Made by a program: the position numbers and the translations under genes. From a virus, in the IMG/VR virus record IMGVR_UViG_3300027985_000063, positions 1-34,460 of that record: a stretch of 34,460 bases of DNA, one strand, 5' to 3'. The notes beneath the pieces are model-generated. The model saw only the letters and a list, made by a program, of their open reading frames with translations, had not been told where the DNA came from and ran no database searches. This document shows, piece by piece, positions 1,732-34,311 of this stretch (the stretch's first letter is position 1; every line of letters begins with the position of its first letter).

Positions 1732-3217
1732 CTTGATTCATGGTTTTTGTGCATCTCTCTTAGCTAAACGCTTTGATAATGCTGTGAGAACTCCTCAGTT
1801 TCACTTGGATTTGTGGAATTACTTCTGTGACCCACATCCTCTTGTAGCTATTGCTGCTCCTCGTGGTCATGGTAAATCTACTGCTATGACACATGCATGT
1901 ACACTTGCTAGTGTACTCTTTAGAGATAGACGATTTGTTGTCATTGTCTCTGATACAGAATCTCAAGCTAGTAACTTCTTGAATGATATGAAAGAGGAGT
2001 TACGGAATAATGATGACTTGATTGAATTATTCCAAGTTAAGGGATTCAAGAAAGATACAGAAACTGATATTATTGTGGAACTAGCTGATGGGCACACGTT
2101 CCGTATTATGGTTCGAGGTGCTGAACAGCGTGTTCGTGGTCTTAAATGGATGCAAATGCGTCCTGATTTGATTATCTGTGATGATTTGGAAGGCGACGAA
2201 CAAGTTCAAAACAAGGATAGGCGAGAGAAATTTCGTAAATGGTTTAATGGCGCTTTACTTCCTTGTCGGTCTAAGCATGGAATTGTTAGAATTGTGGGCA
2301 CCGTTCTTCATTTGGACAGTCTTCTCAATCGTCTTCTTCCTGAAGATAGCCATCCGTCTACAGTAAATGAGCCATTAAAGTCTTGGAGTAAAGCTAGAAC
2401 TCCTTGGAAATCTGTGAGATACCGTGCTCATAATGAAGATTTCTCTAAAATCCTCTGGCCTGAGATGTACACACCTGATTTCTTCCGTTCCAAGAAGGAA
2501 GACCTTACAAATCAAGGTTTGGCTGATGTATATGCTCAAGAATACTTGAATTATCCTATTGATGAGTCCAGTGCTTTCTTCAAACGGGATGATTTCTTTG
2601 AAATCCCTGAATATACTCTGAGAAATATTGAAGAGGGTAAGCAAAGAGTCAACTATTATGCTGCTACTGACTTTGCTATCAGTACTCAAGAACGTTCAGA
2701 CTTTACTGTAATTGCTATTGCGGCAGTAGATGACAAAGGAATTTTAAATCTAGTTGATATTAGAAGAGGTAGATGGGATTCTCTTCAGATTCTAGATGAA
2801 ATGTTTGCAGTTCATAAGAAATACGACCCAGAACTGTTCGTTGTAGAACGAGGAGCTATTGAAAAGGCTCTTGGCCCTATGATTAGAGCAGAAATGGTCT
2901 CTCGTGGAATGTACATGAGACTGCATCCTATGACTCCTACCAAGGATAAGACAGCTCGTGCTAGAAGTATTCAAGCAAGATTGAGAGCTGGTGGTATTAA
3001 ATTCAATAAAGGGGCCTATTGGTACTCTGAGTTTGAAGATGAAATGGCTAGATTTCCTCGTGCTAGACACGATGACCAAGTTGATGCTGTTTCTTGGTTA
3101 GGTTTAGTCATTGACGAAATGCATAATGCTCTTTCTCCTGAAGAAATTGAAGAAGAAGAGTACTATTATGAAATGGGACAAGAGCCTGCTGGCAGGTCTT
3201 CTATAACAGGATATTGA
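1715..3217 (+). CDS. terL: Terminase large subunit
   Basis: ATP-driven packaging motor and headful/cos nuclease. The 500-aa product has Walker A APRGHGKST (48-56), Walker B LIICDDLE (152-159), a likely coupling segment around VGTVLH (194-199), and an RNase H-like nuclease domain with acidic residues D319, E378 and D453/D454/D457 (RHDDQVDA). Length is normal for the family. The start at 1715 lies within the end of the HNH gene. Only a weak GAG lies upstream, so translation may be coupled to the endonuclease. The N-terminus is a second copy of the sequence at 1251. Confidence 0.95.
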   Translation: MKITSDLIHGFCASLLAKRFDNAVRTPQFHLDLWNYFCDPHPLVAIAAPRGHGKSTAMTHACTLASVLFRDRRFVVIVSDTESQASNFLNDMKEELRNNDDLIELFQVKGFKKDTETDIIVELADGHTFRIMVRGAEQRVRGLKWMQMRPDLIICDDLEGDEQVQNKDRREKFRKWFNGALLPCRSKHGIVRIVGTVLHLDSLLNRLLPEDSHPSTVNEPLKSWSKARTPWKSVRYRAHNEDFSKILWPEMYTPDFFRSKKEDLTNQGLADVYAQEYLNYPIDESSAFFKRDDFFEIPEYTLRNIEEGKQRVNYYAATDFAISTQERSDFTVIAIAAVDDKGILNLVDIRRGRWDSLQILDEMFAVHKKYDPELFVVERGAIEKALGPMIRAEMVSRGMYMRLHPMTPTKDKTARARSIQARLRAGGIKFNKGAYWYSEFEDEMARFPRARHDDQVDAVSWLGLVIDEMHNALSPEEIEEEEYYYEMGQEPAGRSSITGY

Positions 3218-3224
3218 GATACTA

Positions 3225-5243
3225 ATGGAATTCGAAACTAAATTTAAACTCGCTGACATTCTTGCTTCGGATAACCTTGCAGAAGACCTATCTGATAGAG
3301 ACTTAGGAACTCTTGGCATGGAAGTAGTTAGAAACTACGAGATGGATAAGACTAGTCGTGTAGAATGGGAACGAAGAGTTAAAGATGCTCTTGACCTAGC
3401 CCTGCAGGTTGTTCAGAAGAAGTCTTTTCCTTGGCCTGATGCTTCTAATATTAAGTTTCCTTTGATTACAATCGCTGCTTTGCAGTATCATGCTAGGGCT
3501 TATCCAGCATTGATTCCGGGCAGCGATATTGTTAAATGTAAGGTTGTTGGAATTGATTCTGAAGGCAAAGAAGAACATCGTGCTATCAGAATTGAGAAGC
3601 ATATGTCTCACCAGATTCTCGAAGAAGATGAGAACTGGGAAGACCAAATGGATAAAGTTTTAATCACTCAGCCTATTGTAGGTTGTGCTTTTAAGAAATC
3701 TTATTACGACCCTACACTAAAATGTAATGTCAGTGAGAATATTCTTGCAAGTGATTTAGTTGTTGACTACTATACAAAATCATTCGAAACTGCAAGCAGA
3801 ATCAGTCATATTCTGTATTTGACAAAGAATGATGTGTATGAAAGAGTAGCTCGTGGTATCTTCCGTGATGTGCCGATATTTGAACCTAACGTCGTTCAAC
3901 AGGATACCTTAACACTAGCTAGAAATAAAGAACAAGGTTCTGAACCCGGACAACATGATGATTCTCGTCCCGGAATGTTCATTGAACAGCACTTATTTTT
4001 GGACTTAGACTGTGATGGATATGAAGAACCATATATTGCGGTAGTTCATAAAGAAAGTAAAACAGTAGTTCGTTTGGTAGCAAGATTCTTCCCTTCTAGT
4101 GTTGAGTTTTCTACAAAAGAAAAAGACAAGATTGTTTCTATTAAAGGTGAACAATACTTTACCAAGTATCCTTTTATCCCTTCTCCTGATGGTGGTTTCT
4201 ATGACTTAGGATTTGGTGCCTTACTAGGACCTCTGAATGAAAGTATTAATACTCTAATTAACCAGTTGGTTGATGCAGGTACCATGTCTAATACTGCCGG
4301 TGGTTTCTTGAGCCGTGGTATTAAAGTACGTGGTGGTGCAATGTCTTTTGCACCTAATGAGTGGAAACCTGTAGATTCTACTGGTGATGACCTACGTAAA
4401 GGTATCCTGCCTTTACCCGTCAGGGAACCAAGTAGTGTTCTATTTACACTTCTGTCGTTACTCATCAATTATGGTGAACGTATTGGAGGTGCAGTAGATA
4501 TTATGGTTGGAGAAAACCCGGGCCAAAACACTCCTGCTGAGACTAGCAGAACTATGGCCGAGCAAGGTATGAAGATTTTCAGTGGAATCTTTAAACGCAC
4601 CCACCGTAGTTTAAAAGCTGAGTTTAGAAAGCTGTATCGTCTGAATCAGTTGTATTTCGATAAGGCCGTTAAGTTTGGTGATTTCGAGATTACTCCTGCA
4701 GACTATATTGGAGAGGTTAGAAACATTGTTCCAGCCTCCGATGCTCATATGGTGTCTGATAACCAAAGAATTAATCAAGCAGCCATGCTGACTAGTTTAT
4801 CTCAGGCTCATGGAGGATACGACCAGTACCAAGTTCAGAAACGAGTTCTGGAAGCTTGGAGAGTTCCTGATATTGAGCAAGTGTTACCCGACCCGAAAGG
4901 ACCTAACGCTATCCAACAAGCACCTCATTACAAGGTACAGGAAGCTCAGGTTAAGGTTGAAGGTAAGATGAAGGAAATCGAAGCTAAGATGCAGATGCAC
5001 ATTATGAAGCTTCAGCAAGAAGCTGAAGTTAACAGAGCTAAGATTGAACTCATGGAATCTCAAGCATTGGCAGCATTGGAACAAGCTGATAGTATACAAG
5101 CTACTCAGCAAATTCAATTGTTGCAGACTCAGATTAGTGCAGCAAAGACACATCAAGATGGTATTCTTGAGTCTCTCAGATTGATGCATGATATGAAACA
5201 AGCATATCAAGTAAACTCTCTAGAGGCCACACCGAAGGAGTAA
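3225..5243 (+). CDS. Portal protein (head-tail connector)
   Basis: A 672-aa protein immediately after terL, with portal-like features. It has a central region with conserved packaging-neck elements (segments around YDLGFGALLGPLNE and NPGQNTPAETSRTM) and a long helical, Gln/Glu/Lys-rich C-terminal extension (about 565-660). Such extensions form the barrel that reaches into the head in P22-like portals. It would form the dodecameric ring through which DNA enters and leaves. Gene order (terL, portal, small protein, chaperonin-like, scaffold) supports the call. The start has no strong Shine-Dalgarno and is 7 nt after the terL stop. Confidence 0.88.
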   Translation: MEFETKFKLADILASDNLAEDLSDRDLGTLGMEVVRNYEMDKTSRVEWERRVKDALDLALQVVQKKSFPWPDASNIKFPLITIAALQYHARAYPALIPGSDIVKCKVVGIDSEGKEEHRAIRIEKHMSHQILEEDENWEDQMDKVLITQPIVGCAFKKSYYDPTLKCNVSENILASDLVVDYYTKSFETASRISHILYLTKNDVYERVARGIFRDVPIFEPNVVQQDTLTLARNKEQGSEPGQHDDSRPGMFIEQHLFLDLDCDGYEEPYIAVVHKESKTVVRLVARFFPSSVEFSTKEKDKIVSIKGEQYFTKYPFIPSPDGGFYDLGFGALLGPLNESINTLINQLVDAGTMSNTAGGFLSRGIKVRGGAMSFAPNEWKPVDSTGDDLRKGILPLPVREPSSVLFTLLSLLINYGERIGGAVDIMVGENPGQNTPAETSRTMAEQGMKIFSGIFKRTHRSLKAEFRKLYRLNQLYFDKAVKFGDFEITPADYIGEVRNIVPASDAHMVSDNQRINQAAMLTSLSQAHGGYDQYQVQKRVLEAWRVPDIEQVLPDPKGPNAIQQAPHYKVQEAQVKVEGKMKEIEAKMQMHIMKLQQEAEVNRAKIELMESQALAALEQADSIQATQQIQLLQTQISAAKTHQDGILESLRLMHDMKQAYQVNSLEATPKE

Positions 5244-30431: not shown

Positions 30432-30508
30432 TGGTCTCCCTTAGTTGAGTCGAACAACTAACCTACTCCTTAGAAGGGAGTTGCTCTATCCAATTGAGCT
30501 AAAGGGAG
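30432..30508 (-). tRNA. tRNA-Arg (TCT)
   Basis: Full cloverleaf: acceptor CTCCCTT/AAGGGAG, D-arm GCTC...GAGC, anticodon loop CTTCTAA (anticodon TCT, reading AGA), T-arm AGTTG-TTCGACT-CAACT, discriminator A and encoded CCA. AGA is a common Arg codon in this window. Only 1 nt separates it from tRNA-Gly. Confidence 0.93.
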
Positions 30509-30509
30509 A

Positions 30510-30584
30510 TGGAGCGGGATAGGAGAATCGAACTCCTTCTAATTGCTTGGAAGGCAACTGCTCTACCAAATAAGCTAATCCCGC
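30510..30584 (-). tRNA. tRNA-Gly (TCC)
   Basis: Acceptor GCGGGAT/ATCCCGC, D-arm with GG in the loop, anticodon stem GTTGC/GCAAT with loop CTTCCAA (anticodon TCC, reading GGA), T-loop TTCGATT, discriminator T and encoded CCA. GGA is frequent in the late genes. Confidence 0.93.
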
Positions 30585-30588
30585 AATG

Positions 30589-30664
30589 TGGCTGGATAGA
30601 TAGGACTTGAACCTATGACCAACGGATTAACAGTCCGCTGCTCTACCTACTGAGCTACTATCCA
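30589..30664 (-). tRNA. tRNA-Asn (GTT)
   Basis: Acceptor TGGATAG/CTATCCA, D-arm GCTC...GAGC, anticodon stem GCGGA/TCCGT with loop CTGTTAA (anticodon GTT), T-arm ATAGG-TTCAAGT-CCTAT, discriminator G and encoded CCA. It lies 4 nt upstream of tRNA-Gly. Confidence 0.93.
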
Positions 30665-30669
30665 ATTGA

Positions 30670-30757
30670 AATAGGAAGTACGGATTCGAACCGTATTGCC
30701 AATGAAGGAATCGAACCTTCGACCGTATCCAGCCCCACTTCCAGCGGCCTTCCTATT
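30670..30757 (-). tRNA. tRNA-like element, non-standard cloverleaf
   Basis: An 88-nt segment closed by a 9-bp stem (AATAGGAAG with CTTCCTATT). A standard T-arm (TACGG-TTCGAAT-CCGTA, 30679-30695) sits next to the 3' side. A second hairpin upstream (GAAGG-TTCGATT-CCTTC, 30704-30720) also looks like a T-arm; if it is the anticodon arm, the anticodon is CGA (Ser). Length suits a long-variable-arm tRNA, but I cannot fold a normal D-arm, and no CCA is encoded, unlike its three neighbours. It may be a degenerate tRNA-Ser or a fusion of two tRNAs. Confidence 0.5.
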
Positions 30758-30771
30758 AACTGTTAAGTAGA

Positions 30772-30789
30772 CCTAGTACTAAGACTAGG
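30772..30789. other. Hairpin between ssb and tRNA cluster
   Basis: CCTAGT-ACTAAG-ACTAGG is a perfect 6-bp stem with a 6-nt loop and no T-run on either side. It may separate the ssb message from the tRNA transcript as a processing signal. Confidence 0.35.
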
Positions 30790-30800
30790 CCCACACATGC

Positions 30801-30823
30801 TATCCCAATATCAATATGGGATA
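30801..30823. other. Hairpin spanning the ssb stop codon
   Basis: TATCCCA (30801-30807) and TGGGATA (30817-30823) form a perfect 7-bp stem; the ssb stop codon (30813-30811) is in the loop. No T-run follows on the minus strand, so it is more likely an mRNA-stabilising element than a terminator. Confidence 0.4.
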
Positions 30824-31386
30824 TCGTCAGGGAAGTCATCATCTGCTACCTCTGGAGCAGAGTTTTTAGCTGCTGCTGGAGGAGTAGTGTCAAGTACATA
30901 CGATTCAAATGTACGAGCAGTTTGAATCACACTTTCAGCAGAAGCTTTCTTATCACTTGTTGCAGCAGCCAAAGCAACTGCATTAGCTAGTGAAGATTGT
31001 CGAACAATCATTACTTGTTTTTCTGCTCGTTCTTCTTTTGTTTCCCAGTTGCTTCCTGTCGATTTAGTAGCACCCCCTCCTGTAGAGGCTGTCGATGGAG
31101 TGGTATTTTGTGGAGCTGCTCCTGAAGTGTCGATTGCTTGCCATTGCCAGAAAGATTGTCCTTGGTTGTTTGGAGCAGACTTTTCTTGTGTGATTGTTAC
31201 AGATTGCCCTGCACTCAAATTTTGCAGAGACTTAAATACTGTAGGATTCACGAAATCCATAATCTTCTTACCTTCTACTTTACCATCTTTCTTGAAAACT
31301 ACTTCAATAAATTGATAAGATTTACCACCTTTGGTGGGGACTGTTTGTGGTGTTCCTACGGAGATAATATCTACTTGGATTTGCAT
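30811..31386 (-). CDS. ssb: Single-stranded DNA-binding protein
   Basis: The 191-aa product has an N-terminal beta-barrel-like part (about 1-80) with segments such as SYQFIEVVFKKDG and VTITQE. A Ser/Thr/Gly/Ala-rich linker follows (about 85-112), then a helical part, then an acidic tail ending DDDFPDDIPY. That tail matches the SSB C-terminal tip used to recruit replication proteins. It has its own strong promoter (31445-31473) and is the first gene after the polymerase C-terminal half. The ATG is preceded by AAAGG at a long spacing. Confidence 0.8.
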   Translation of the reverse strand: MQIQVDIISVGTPQTVPTKGGKSYQFIEVVFKKDGKVEGKKIMDFVNPTVFKSLQNLSAGQSVTITQEKSAPNNQGQSFWQWQAIDTSGAAPQNTTPSTASTGGGATKSTGSNWETKEERAEKQVMIVRQSSLANAVALAAATSDKKASAESVIQTARTFESYVLDTTPPAAAKNSAPEVADDDFPDDIPY

Positions 31387-31444
31387 ATGTTTTGTTACCT
31401 TTCTCGTTGTTTGTTTCTTTTAATTTATTTGTTTCTATGTATAT

Positions 31445-31473
31445 ATTGTAGCATGTATTTTTACTTCTGTCAA
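31445..31473 (-). promoter_or_regulatory. Internal leftward sigma70 promoter (extended -10) for ssb
   Basis: On the minus strand TTGACA (31473-31468), 17 nt, then TACAAT (31450-31445), preceded by TGC, which gives a TGn extended -10. It lies in the only clear intergenic gap of this operon (31387-31477), with a start expected about 50 nt before the ssb ATG. It would raise expression of ssb, the tRNAs and downstream genes relative to the polymerase. Confidence 0.8.
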
Positions 31474-31477
31474 ATTT

Positions 31478-32200
31478 TTAACCACATTTCATATTAACTT
31501 CCTCCATGTTTTTCCAGTCATTACCAATTTGAATTTCTCCACGATAAGGAAGATTAAAATCTTGTTTCCATAGACGTTTAAAATTCATAGGAACATCTTC
31601 GAATACAGAAGCAATAATGTCACACACCCATTGTACTTTATGGTCAGGACAATCAATCAAAATGGAATCGTGTACACTGTTAATCATAAGTATCTCATTG
31701 TCATGTTTGATACGATTGTATAAAGATACTCTTGTTAAAGCCATTAAATCAGCTTCTAGTCCTTGCACAACATAGTTCTTAATAGTAGTAACAGGCCAGA
31801 CTAGTTCACCTTTCTTATTTTTTACCATAGAGAATGCCCACTTACGTCCAGTAGGAATAGATAATTCTCTAGTAGTTGTGGCAGTTTTAATTAATTGTTC
31901 ATGCCACGCGTGTACTCCTTTATATTTTTTATAGAAGCGTTCAATTACTAATTCCCAGTCAGAAATAGAAAATCCACATTCATCAAAATCTGGGTCCATA
32001 GCAAACCCCGGGGCACTTCCTCCAAAAATAATACGAAAAAGGAAGATTTTAGCAAAGAGACGAGAAGGTAATCCAAATACCTTTTGGTTATCTGTATGAA
32101 GGTCGAAACCTTCTTCAATCTCTTTGATACCTACTGGGTCTTGAGACAGATATACAGCAGCTGTCCAATCAAGATGTTTTGCATCAACGTTTACTAATAT
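31478..32200 (-). CDS. polA: DNA polymerase family A, C-terminal half (palm/fingers), ATA start
   Basis: Carries the polymerase active site: motif A VNVDAKHLDW (D6), motif B R47, K51, F55, F59-G60, and motif C VHDS (H177, D178); numbering is from the ATA at 32200. Upstream the frame is open to a TGA at 32269-32267 without any ATG, GTG or TTG. AAAGGAG lies exactly 6 nt before the ATA, so this is the most likely start. The first ATG (31999) would lose motifs A and B. The N-terminal half is a separate gene at 33163-34311. The two proteins together (about 622 aa) equal one normal phage PolA. Confidence 0.8.
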   Translation of the reverse strand: MLVNVDAKHLDWTAAVYLSQDPVGIKEIEEGFDLHTDNQKVFGLPSRLFAKIFLFRIIFGGSAPGFAMDPDFDECGFSISDWELVIERFYKKYKGVHAWHEQLIKTATTTRELSIPTGRKWAFSMVKNKKGELVWPVTTIKNYVVQGLEADLMALTRVSLYNRIKHDNEILMINSVHDSILIDCPDHKVQWVCDIIASVFEDVPMNFKRLWKQDFNLPYRGEIQIGNDWKNMEEVNMKCG

Positions 32201-32206
32201 TGTTAT

Positions 32207-32213
32207 CTCCTTT
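32207..32213 (-). promoter_or_regulatory. Shine-Dalgarno deciding an ATA start
   Basis: AAAGGAG on the minus strand is complementary to the 16S rRNA 3' end, with 6 nt between it and the ATA at 32200. It overlaps the stop codon of the preceding 75-aa gene. Nothing else in its range could serve as an in-frame start, which makes this site the main evidence for an AUA-initiated polymerase half. Confidence 0.75.
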
Positions 32214-32439
32214 AATGATGACTCTCTACTACAGATTCTAATACACGATGACTTGATTTCATAATATCATACTTTCTTTTCAAAGTATCATAATGTTCAA
32301 CAAGTACGTGCCCCGCAAACAGCTCGGCACGGACTGAACCATCTAGGTAATTTACGAGAGCTTCCCGTCCTACTGCTTGGAGAGCCTCCTTGATTGCTTT
32401 CTTTGCTTCCCATAAGATTCGTTCTTGACATTCTGTCAT
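32212..32439 (-). CDS. Hypothetical 75-aa protein inside the polymerase locus
   Basis: A helical, mildly basic product with no Cys beyond residue 4. The N-terminal helix MTECQERILWEAKKAIKEALQAVG is amphipathic, and the end (KRKYDIMKSSHRVLESVV) could be a coiled coil. It overlaps the metallophosphoesterase by 4 nt, with AAGGA ahead of its ATG, and its stop overlaps the ribosome site of the polymerase C-terminal half, so it can couple translation of that half. No family recognised. Confidence 0.7.
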   Translation of the reverse strand: MTECQERILWEAKKAIKEALQAVGREALVNYLDGSVRAELFAGHVLVEHYDTLKRKYDIMKSSHRVLESVVESHH

Positions 32440-32942
32440 TGAAATTCCTTTCTGATTTCTTCAAAAGCGATAGGAGTATAGTTAATGTTTTCTACACTGA
32501 CATTAAAGTATCGGCTATCTTTTAGATTTTCATCATGAAGATGTCCGTGAATATTACCTTTCCACCTCTCTATACTATTCGGATGTATAGGAATATGAGA
32601 TAAGACCAATCTATCCAACACATGATAAGCTCTAATATCTTTAAAGCATTTTAAATATTGAGATGCTTTTAACTCATCATGGTTTCCTTTAATTAAAACT
32701 TTTTCTCCGTTCAGTCTTGAGAAGATAGAATCCATCTGAGTTATATTAAAGAATCCTACATCCCCTAAATGATAAACTTTATCAACTGGTCGAACTACAC
32801 TGTTCCAGTTACTAATCAACCATTCATCATGCTCCTCAATGGAATCGAAATATGGCCTAAGTCGTTCTCCATTTTTTCTTCCAAACTTTAGAATGTTTGC
32901 ATGTCTAAAGTGAGTGTCGGATATTAAAAAAATATTTGCCAT
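32436..32942 (-). CDS. Calcineurin-like metallophosphoesterase (168 aa)
   Basis: All five metal-binding motifs are present: SDTHFRH (8-14), GDVG (60-63), GNHDE (about 86-90), SHIPIHP (about 114-120) and GHLHDE (about 132-137). The product is a small single-domain phosphoesterase, close to bacterial YfcE/phage forms that hydrolyse phosphodiester or phosphomonoester bonds. The substrate is unknown; 2',3'-cyclic or capped nucleotides are possibilities. It is the central gene of the three-gene block that divides the polymerase, with overlapping junctions both sides. Confidence 0.9.
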   Translation of the reverse strand: MANIFLISDTHFRHANILKFGRKNGERLRPYFDSIEEHDEWLISNWNSVVRPVDKVYHLGDVGFFNITQMDSIFSRLNGEKVLIKGNHDELKASQYLKCFKDIRAYHVLDRLVLSHIPIHPNSIERWKGNIHGHLHDENLKDSRYFNVSVENINYTPIAFEEIRKEFQ

Positions 32943-33163
32943 TAATAATCCTCTTCTTCAGTTGTATTGTATCCTAATTTCTCCAAAATTTCTTGATAAA
33001 TTTGGTCCCTAGACCAATTAGAACCTCCACAACAATGTGCGATAGGAATATTAGAAAGTAAAACTTTATTATCTAATGTAACTGTAGCTCCTTCTGCGTA
33101 AGAGGGTCCACACGTTTCACAATCATTGTTATCGTATAACCATTTAATATGAAGTTTTTTCAT
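32942..33163 (-). CDS. Small Cys-containing protein following the polymerase N-half (73 aa)
   Basis: Starts in a TGATG overlap with the polymerase N-terminal half and ends in TAATG with the phosphoesterase. It has C15-C18 in DNNDCETCGPSYAEG and a C44-C45 pair in HCCGG, which could form one metal site. Similar small proteins occur in phage genomes, as far as I recall, with no function given. It is the first gene of the block between the polymerase halves. Confidence 0.7.
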   Translation of the reverse strand: MKKLHIKWLYDNNDCETCGPSYAEGATVTLDNKVLLSNIPIAHCCGGSNWSRDQIYQEILEKLGYNTTEEEDY

Positions 33164-34311
33164 CAGTACCTAGTAACAAATAAGTCTGCAATCTTCTTAT
33201 CGAAGTTTTGCATATTTGGTTGACTGCTAGATAAACGACCAGTGATAGCTACACATTGATTCAATTGACCATGAATTATATTCTCTTCCCAGTCTTTGTT
33301 TAGAATCAGTTTAGGAATTCCATGTAGGTAAGTTCCTCTTCGTTTTTCTAGTTCAGCTTGTTTCAGGATAAGTTCAACTAGTCGTTTAGCTTTTCCTCTT
33401 GGTCGAATAGATTTAAGAGTTGGTTCGTTTGTAGCGTAGTATCCTTCCTTTTTCAACTCTGAGCCTTTTAAAGGTGTGACTAATCGAGGCATCTCTTTCT
33501 GTACTATGATGTTCCTTGTTTTCTCTTTTGTTCGACCATCTTTGTATGTAAAAATGTAAGTTTCTTTGTCTGGATATTTTAAAATTCCTCCATAAAGAGC
33601 AGCACTAACATGGTCACCAGAACCCGGTGAGAATTGAGGACAATCAAGAATCTGTATCATCTCTTCATTGATAATGTCCAGTTCGCGCTGAATGTCATCT
33701 CCTAATTTAATAGAAGTTTCAGTGTCATATTTCATTCCATTTTGTTCAATCTCTACTAACGCTAGTAGGTCTTGGTTACATAAAGAGATTAAGATTTGTT
33801 GTTGAGGAGTAATCCTTTCTTTTTGTTTCATAAATAAATCATAAGTCTGTTCCACATCTTGACATAGATAATCTCGTAGAATTTGTTCTGGAATATCAGG
33901 AGTATCAATTCCATTATCCCAATATTCTGTTTTAACTACATCGAGCTTACCTTCCAATCCGTAACTGATAGCAGTATTATGGAGAGAAGGGTAAGGAATA
34001 GACTGATTCGATAACACAAATTCGACCACTTGGGCATCATAAACCCTTTTGTTAGAGAATGATAGGCCATAACGTATAAGCCAGTGTAAGTCGAACTTAG
34101 TATTAAAACCCACCAAGCAATCGTGCGCATCAATTAATTCCTGTATTTTAGTTAAGGATTCTCCATATGGATAGTTCCCATATTCGATAGGGAAATCATA
34201 ATAAATTCCATCGTGAGTGAGCATACCAACATAACATAGCCGATTTCTTTGAGAAAAAGGATTACCTTTTTCGTATGTTGTAGTTTCTACATCAAAGATT
34301 AGATATTTCAT
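33163..34311 (-). CDS. polA: DNA polymerase family A, N-terminal half (3'-5' exonuclease and thumb)
   Basis: Residues 1-190 form a DnaQ-like proofreading domain: D7-V-E9 (Exo I), N69 with D73 in GFNTKFDLHW (Exo II), and Y147-LCQ-D151 (Exo III). The thumb and start of the palm follow, ending in TGRLSSSQPNMQN and then LFVTRY and a stop. In intact PolA proteins two or three residues separate this point from motif A, which here begins the other gene. The half therefore lacks all catalytic polymerase residues. It follows a partial gene at the window edge. Confidence 0.9.
   Translation of the reverse strand: MKYLIFDVETTTYEKGNPFSQRNRLCYVGMLTHDGIYYDFPIEYGNYPYGESLTKIQELIDAHDCLVGFNTKFDLHWLIRYGLSFSNKRVYDAQVVEFVLSNQSIPYPSLHNTAISYGLEGKLDVVKTEYWDNGIDTPDIPEQILRDYLCQDVEQTYDLFMKQKERITPQQQILISLCNQDLLALVEIEQNGMKYDTETSIKLGDDIQRELDIINEEMIQILDCPQFSPGSGDHVSAALYGGILKYPDKETYIFTYKDGRTKEKTRNIIVQKEMPRLVTPLKGSELKKEGYYATNEPTLKSIRPRGKAKRLVELILKQAELEKRRGTYLHGIPKLILNKDWEENIIHGQLNQCVAITGRLSSSQPNMQNFDKKIADLFVTRY

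Follow-up and report, generated by a model that had tools for sequence, protein, structure and literature searches.

The window analysed here, IMG/VR record IMGVR_UViG_3300027985_000063, is linear and 34,460 bases long, and it carries on its minus strand two open reading frames that match complementary parts of the family-A DNA polymerase profile PF00476 (Table 1). The upstream ORF contains a 3'-5' exonuclease-like part, for which the exonuclease match is weak, and the first part of the polymerase domain (DNA_pol_A, 4.4e-16, profile positions 52-133), and it is 42-51% identical to its counterparts in five named phages. The downstream ORF contains the catalytic part of the domain (DNA_pol_A, 1.3e-21, profile positions 152-380 of 381). 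The two ORFs, which match complementary Pfam parts as well as phage polymerase families, are the halves of a split family-A polymerase. The polymerase is broken between the ...FVTRY end of the first half and the strand of motif A, which is the break point (...SRY / motif A) of the split in phage MEP401. In the alignment, the catalytic half retains an unbroken frame and all the invariant-type residues of motif A, the motif-B-like stretch, and motif C, which argues that this gene is probably used.

Three ORFs occupy the space between the two halves. For the last of them, of 75 aa, Pfam and PHROG profile searches gave no family match, and in a comparison with MEP402 it resembled the small ORF that relatives carry in this position only faintly and without significance. 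Downstream of the split polymerase lie three tRNA genes and a gene for a 5'-3' exonuclease. The tRNA genes (Arg-TCT, Gly-TCC, and Asn-GTT; 30432-30664, minus strand) are placed amid replication genes, and these being the only tRNAs of the window, a phage tRNA reading AUA at initiation was rejected as a candidate. Upstream of them, at 30665-30760 on the minus strand, a tRNA-like stretch with paired ends GGAAG/CTTCC and two T-arm-like loops was observed, which is not called a tRNA by ARAGORN or Rfam and is perhaps a decayed tRNA.

Table 1. Features of the split polymerase locus in the window (minus strand) and leucine-codon junctions within motif A of related loci
Feature	Position	Strand	Basis or sequence
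N-terminal half of split family-A DNA polymerase, 382 aa, ending in ...FVTRY and stop	33163..34311	-	Pfam DNA_pol_A, phrog_9556, phrog_17
73-aa ORF overlapping the stop of the N-terminal half, no assigned function	32942..33163	-	phrog_8901, 2.3e-5
Calcineurin-like phosphoesterase, 168 aa, between the polymerase halves	32436..32942	-	phrog_547, 3.7e-53; Metallophos_2 just under cutoff
75-aa ORF, TAA stop overlapping the Shine-Dalgarno site	32212..32439	-	ORF call
Shine-Dalgarno site AAAGGAG, 6 nt before ATA	32207..32213	-	sequence
Inferred ATA start codon, aligned with the ATG of relatives	32198..32200	-	sequence and comparison
C-terminal (catalytic) half, 240 codons, frame intact	31478..32200	-	Pfam DNA_pol_A, phrog_2573, phrog_17, alignment
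Motif A, Asp codon GAT (VNVDAKHLDW)	32183..32185	-	alignment of relatives
Motif-B-like stretch RLFAKIFLFRIIFGG	32018..32062	-	invariant R47, K51, F55, R56, G61 in alignment
Motif C, VHDS	31664..31675	-	invariant V176-S179 in alignment
L066 junction	site 3000-3060		CAA CTG TAA CTG GAG
L111 junction			GGC CTT TAG CTA GAG
L304 junction			AGC CTT TAG CTC GAA
L305 junction			TCG CTT TAA CTG GAA
L083/L186/L092/L302 junction			CAA CTT T CTT GAG
L251 junction			GCA CTT C CTT GAA
L301 junction			GGG CTT C CTA GAG
L313 junction			TCC CTT ATAAA CTC GAG

The catalytic frame is open from stop to stop between 32266 and 31478. According to the first-pass annotation it lacks a standard start codon, and this was borne out by direct reading: no ATG, GTG, or TTG occurs between the in-frame TGA (32269-32267) and motif A, and the first in-frame ATG, at 31999, lies past both motif A and the motif-B-like stretch, so that an ORF restricted to these three codons starts only there. 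The coordinates proposed for the start, with ATA at 32200-32198 separated by the spacer ATAACA from AAAGGAG at 32213-32207, all hold. This AAAGGAG is among the strongest Shine-Dalgarno sites of the window, in which a match of at least 6 nt at a distance of 4-10 nt precedes 16 of the 1394 ATA trinucleotides (1.1%), 533 of 68,878 positions of any kind, and 5 of the 37 listed gene starts; a site this good in front of the ATA would thus arise by chance at about 1%. By eye, the upstream in-frame near-cognate codons (ATC, ATT, and an ATA abutting the Shine-Dalgarno site) are without a spaced ribosome site, and RNA folding of the start site found no hairpin beyond chance (z 0.70).

The same split was found in five GenBank phages, the closest named ones (MEP401, MEP402, MW202796, MW202697, and OK172329), and at about 160 distinct IMG/VR loci, which were fetched using both halves as queries together with a DNA pattern for DNQ..FGLP. 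In four of the named phages (MEP401, MEP402, MW202796, and OK172329), an ATG aligns without gaps with the ATA of the window, exactly five codons before the motif-A aspartate, as is seen when OK172329 (ATG TTA GTA TCA ATT GAC) is set beside the window (ATA TTA GTA AAC GTT GAT); MW202697 starts with TTG one codon earlier. A first parse, covering 157 of 170 catalytic ORFs, found ATG at the aligned codon in 139; ATA was confined to the window and a copy of it, and the remaining 16 had ATG one codon earlier, GTG, or TTG, or were unsplit polymerases. After removal of duplicates, 175 of 200 loci were parsed, including a few unsplit rows, and a standard start was present upstream in all except the window and L292, a contig that ends at the start site. 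Our largest table held 166 rows without the motif-A lesions described below: 159 with ATG (152 at codon -5, 7 at codon -6), two with GTG, one with TTG, and four without a standard start, namely the window, the truncated L292, and the unsplit L189 and L031. Among split loci with a visible start, standard codons were present in 162 of 163 lesion-free loci and in all 12 lesion loci, that is, in 174 of 175, at the aligned codon or one earlier, and the exception was the window. An ATG about five codons before the motif-A aspartate is usual for the MEP401-type split and not strictly defining, GTG or TTG being found in 3 lesion-free and several lesion loci; the window has ATA instead.

Since relatives start there with ATG, the ATA site is, judging from the alignment, the inherited start of the catalytic half, and on this comparison either an AUG there has become AUA or the codon was misread. 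The window therefore has an AUA at the inherited start position, behind a spaced Shine-Dalgarno site. In the tree the window is the only tip of a long branch within the split group, so any AUG to AUA change is undatable. Among the relatives retrieved, none was closer than about 51% identity, and no close relative with the ATA codon was found. A scan with the pattern VDAKHLDW yielded no match in IMG/VR, and a scan of Genome_contigs yielded one match, an unsplit relative.

MEP401 and MEP402, which are Methylophilales phages (PMC10580990), are split at the same place as the window, at 45-51% identity, and like the window they have the exonuclease and the first polymerase part in one gene and the catalytic part in the next but one. 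They differ in that their catalytic half starts with ATG and one small ORF lies between the halves, whereas the window has an ATA start and three intervening ORFs including the phosphoesterase. The paper on these phages describes two polymerase ORFs and treats an intron as possible but undecided, and it notes that phage polymerase genes commonly harbour group I introns (PMC10580990). Halves joined as exons would require no start codon for the second one. We regard this explanation as extremely improbable for the window, as no Rfam intron was detected there, including in a relaxed search of 30580-33400, or in 11 relatives; moreover, the space between the halves is filled by overlapping ORFs, the stop of the N-terminal half keeps its place in relatives whether the two halves overlap or lie as much as 3.6 kb apart, and relatives retain the ATG. 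The open catalytic frame from 32266, which overlaps the 75-aa ORF, would also permit a -1 frameshift fusion with that ORF or initiation at an upstream near-cognate codon. Such an origin of the catalytic half is very unlikely, given that no slippery heptamer was seen by eye in the overlap, that in relatives the catalytic half has an ATG of its own at motif A and is not fused, and that homology in the best matches starts within two residues of the ATA.

We consider it probable, on the strength of the aligned start codons and the ribosome site, that the window encodes a two-subunit family-A replicative polymerase whose catalytic half starts at the AUA at 32200-32198, in place of an ancestral AUG. 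Of the first-pass claim that the catalytic half begins at AUA, the position stands, being the inherited start with ATG in relatives and a strong Shine-Dalgarno site. The main competing explanation holds that the virus has ATG and that the recorded ATA arose through faulty sequencing or assembly, or through a rare variant that entered the consensus. Relatives carry ATG at exactly the aligned codon, one base away, the window is known from a single metagenomic record, and stray lesions do occur in such records (about 200 distinct loci included one stop within the body of a catalytic half, in L089, and one within an N-terminal half, in L125); it also weighs against use of AUA that no other split relative has it and that one consensus error or minority variant would look identical. 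Stray lesions are, however, rare, by our estimate 2 in roughly 120,000 codons, and a strong Shine-Dalgarno site suits a weak start, although 5 of the 37 ordinary starts are equally strong, so we judge an error rather unlikely, though well worth weighing. Loss of the start codon would alone suffice to switch off the catalytic half in this genome, which could be a defective or minority variant, but the intact frame of 240 codons with all motif residues present makes this quite improbable.

If the AUA is used, fMet-tRNA would initiate the catalytic subunit at this codon, an ancestral AUG having been replaced in place, and the weak codon would be offset by the strong, well-spaced Shine-Dalgarno site. 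Ribosomes that end the 75-aa ORF on the Shine-Dalgarno site, 12 nt upstream, may also aid initiation. The catalytic half would then be made at a fraction of the yield of an AUG gene, perhaps around a tenth. Use of the AUA in the cell, a lower yield, and any regulatory purpose are what we infer from the recorded codon and its surroundings, and a deliberate limitation of the catalytic subunit by the weak start is plausible.

The first-pass annotation had presented AUA as a very rare start with the AUU of infC as the closest case. E. coli infC does start at AUU, and the near-cognate starts of infC and pcnB are thought to hold their proteins scarce, as might be the case in the window; they differ from it in having AUU and in being cellular genes. 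The wording on AUA was too strong, as AUA starts of infC, ccpN, and citZ of S. aureus have been mapped experimentally (PMC13009471). Extended Shine-Dalgarno sites precede the AUA starts of infC and ccpN, and AUA reporters of ccpN and citZ reached about 10% of AUG in poor medium and, for ccpN, up to 30% in rich medium (PMC13009471). The three S. aureus genes resemble the window in having AUA behind a strong Shine-Dalgarno site; they have been mapped and measured, whereas the AUA of the window is known from a single sequence and belongs to a phage replicase subunit. Because verified bacterial AUA starts exist, a real AUA start in the window is biologically credible, if unproven. It would provide a phage replicative polymerase subunit started at AUA, with the AUG changed in place behind a strong ribosome site, and the amount of an essential enzyme would be set by the strength of initiation.

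Frame-by-frame profile searches over the loci fetched by then revealed that breaks of the catalytic half in relatives of the window are nearly all confined to codons 7-12, within motif A (L066, L111, L083/L186/L092, L251, L004, and L143/L082), and about six branches of the tree route the catalytic half through a stop or frameshift there. Elsewhere, breaks were found at codon 116 of L089 (a stop), at the far C-terminal end of L243, and in the N-terminal half of L125 (a stop). Two scans with the pattern of a leucine codon, one base or a stop, and a second leucine codon added L301, L302, L304, and L305, which, having been found through the pattern, are not independent evidence of how common it is; the matches L298, L299, and L300 were discarded because they are not polymerase genes. 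At each of the junctions in Table 1, a hop from one leucine codon to the other yields exactly D-(A/V)-K-x-L-E. The lesions of L143 (=L265) and L082 (=L233) are not leucine hops: they need a -1 shift, which could take place at A_AAG, and they are found at the same place, with the same type of endonuclease, in both lineages, where they have been kept at a dS of 0.8. The frameshift of L004 (MW202697), at GACGCAAAAAGCTCTTGAATGG in motif A (about 3980-4010), is not a leucine hop either; it needs +1, follows a TTG start, and may be recoding or an error in a run of A. No motif-A lesion is present in the window, where GCA AAA CAT CTT GAT TGG reads in frame. Downstream of the lesion, close pairs show purifying selection (L186 vs L238, dS 0.21 and dN 0.004; L066 vs L186, dS 0.31 and dN 0.042; L233 vs L265, dS 0.80 and dN 0.086), which argues that the lesion-bearing polymerases are probably used despite the lesion.

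An endonuclease-like ORF ends at the start of the catalytic half in every locus with a motif-A lesion except L004. The six of these that were tested belong to the families phrog_3322/1035/3118, and that of L305 is of another, endonuclease-VII-like type; none of these seven reached the Pfam cutoffs, and only the endonuclease of L090 passed (HNH_3). An endonuclease of the phrog_3322/1035/3118 type adjoins the catalytic half at 10 of 12 lesion loci vs 0 of 152 lesion-free split loci (loci with at least 500 nt upstream; Fisher p 2e-14, an upper bound on the strength of the association since related loci are non-independent). In the reverse direction, a scan that started from the endonuclease retained 80 loci. 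A split catalytic half follows immediately in nine of them, and every one of the nine is lesioned, eight of these contigs being already in our set and L313 being new. Two loci count against a cassette as the source of the lesions, namely L004, with its frameshift and no endonuclease upstream, and L090, with a different HNH endonuclease directly upstream and no lesion. In the window, profile searches found no endonuclease directly upstream, only the 73-aa ORF, the phosphoesterase, and the 75-aa ORF.

The anatomy of the insert can be followed at several loci. The old beginning of the catalytic half persists upstream of the endonuclease in L304, L301, L111, and L305 and breaks off in motif A. L187 represents an empty site (ATG TTA CTA CAA GCA GAT GCT AAA CAA TTA GAG TGG), and in L066 and L186 an almost identical sequence is broken off after GCA GA and continues into TTGACT...TATACT, by eye a promoter-like pair; the endonuclease is followed by another copy of the gene start, altered by synonymous changes, and then by the lesion. 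In L305 (3325-3360), the endonuclease ORF itself was observed to open with MAIVNADAKS, the old start of the catalytic half, and the copy after the endonuclease specifies a nearly identical peptide through codons that almost all differ. In the proposed sequence of events, an endonuclease cassette would replace the 5' end of the gene, placing a stop or indel inside motif A, and a ribosome hop between two leucine codons would rescue the motif. From our analysis, the likeliest interpretation of the insert is a homing cassette that guards its own allele by an altered cut site, with recoding restoring the protein. A similar proposal has been made for T4 gene 60 together with the endonuclease gene beside it (PMC5009743, PMC3014915).

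The junctions in motif A are thus candidate natural stop-hops in a mobile cassette. T4 gene 60/mobA (PMC3014915, PMC5009743) is like the relatives, though not like the window, in that an endonuclease gene splits a replication gene; moreover, a stop follows the take-off codon and a matching landing codon lies downstream. T4 gene 60 skips 50 nt, whereas in the relatives the hop between leucine codons would span 1, 3, or 5 nt. In the relatives, unlike T4 gene 60, the 5' end of the gene also arrives with the insert as an altered copy. According to the 2016 recoding review, stop-hops had been demonstrated in synthetic constructs, and no natural case was known (PMC5009743). At abstract level, we found no report of a natural stop-hop in the open-access literature, a body that leaves most subscription journals outside. 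For this reading the relatives matter more than the AUA of the window, in that several phage lineages carry the sequence needed for a stop-hop inside an essential motif, beside an endonuclease gene. With the needed sequence, the endonuclease, and purifying selection in the tested pairs all present, natural stop-hopping becomes directly testable, and so does the connection of recoding with homing endonucleases that T4 gene 60 has exemplified.

The only likeness of the window to its lesion-bearing relatives is a poor decoding signal within the same twelve codons. That the sister-phage polymerases survive poor decoding of motif A makes a true AUA start more believable, without proving it. Natural stop-hops in the relatives together with real use of AUA in the window form a combination that we put forward tentatively. 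As parts of that combination, the first dozen codons of the catalytic half might be a recurrent site of inefficient decoding in the split family, a suggestion to be held with similar caution, and the polymerase could conceivably tolerate, or benefit from, a scarce catalytic subunit. A shared selective reason for the AUA and for the hops of the relatives is less likely than this joint reading, and in itself doubtful. As a separate observation on start codons, the catalytic half begins with TTG in the lesion lineages L301, L303, L304, L251, L313, and L004; ATG is the start in 159 of the 162 lesion-free relatives with a standard start, compared with TTG in several lesion lineages.
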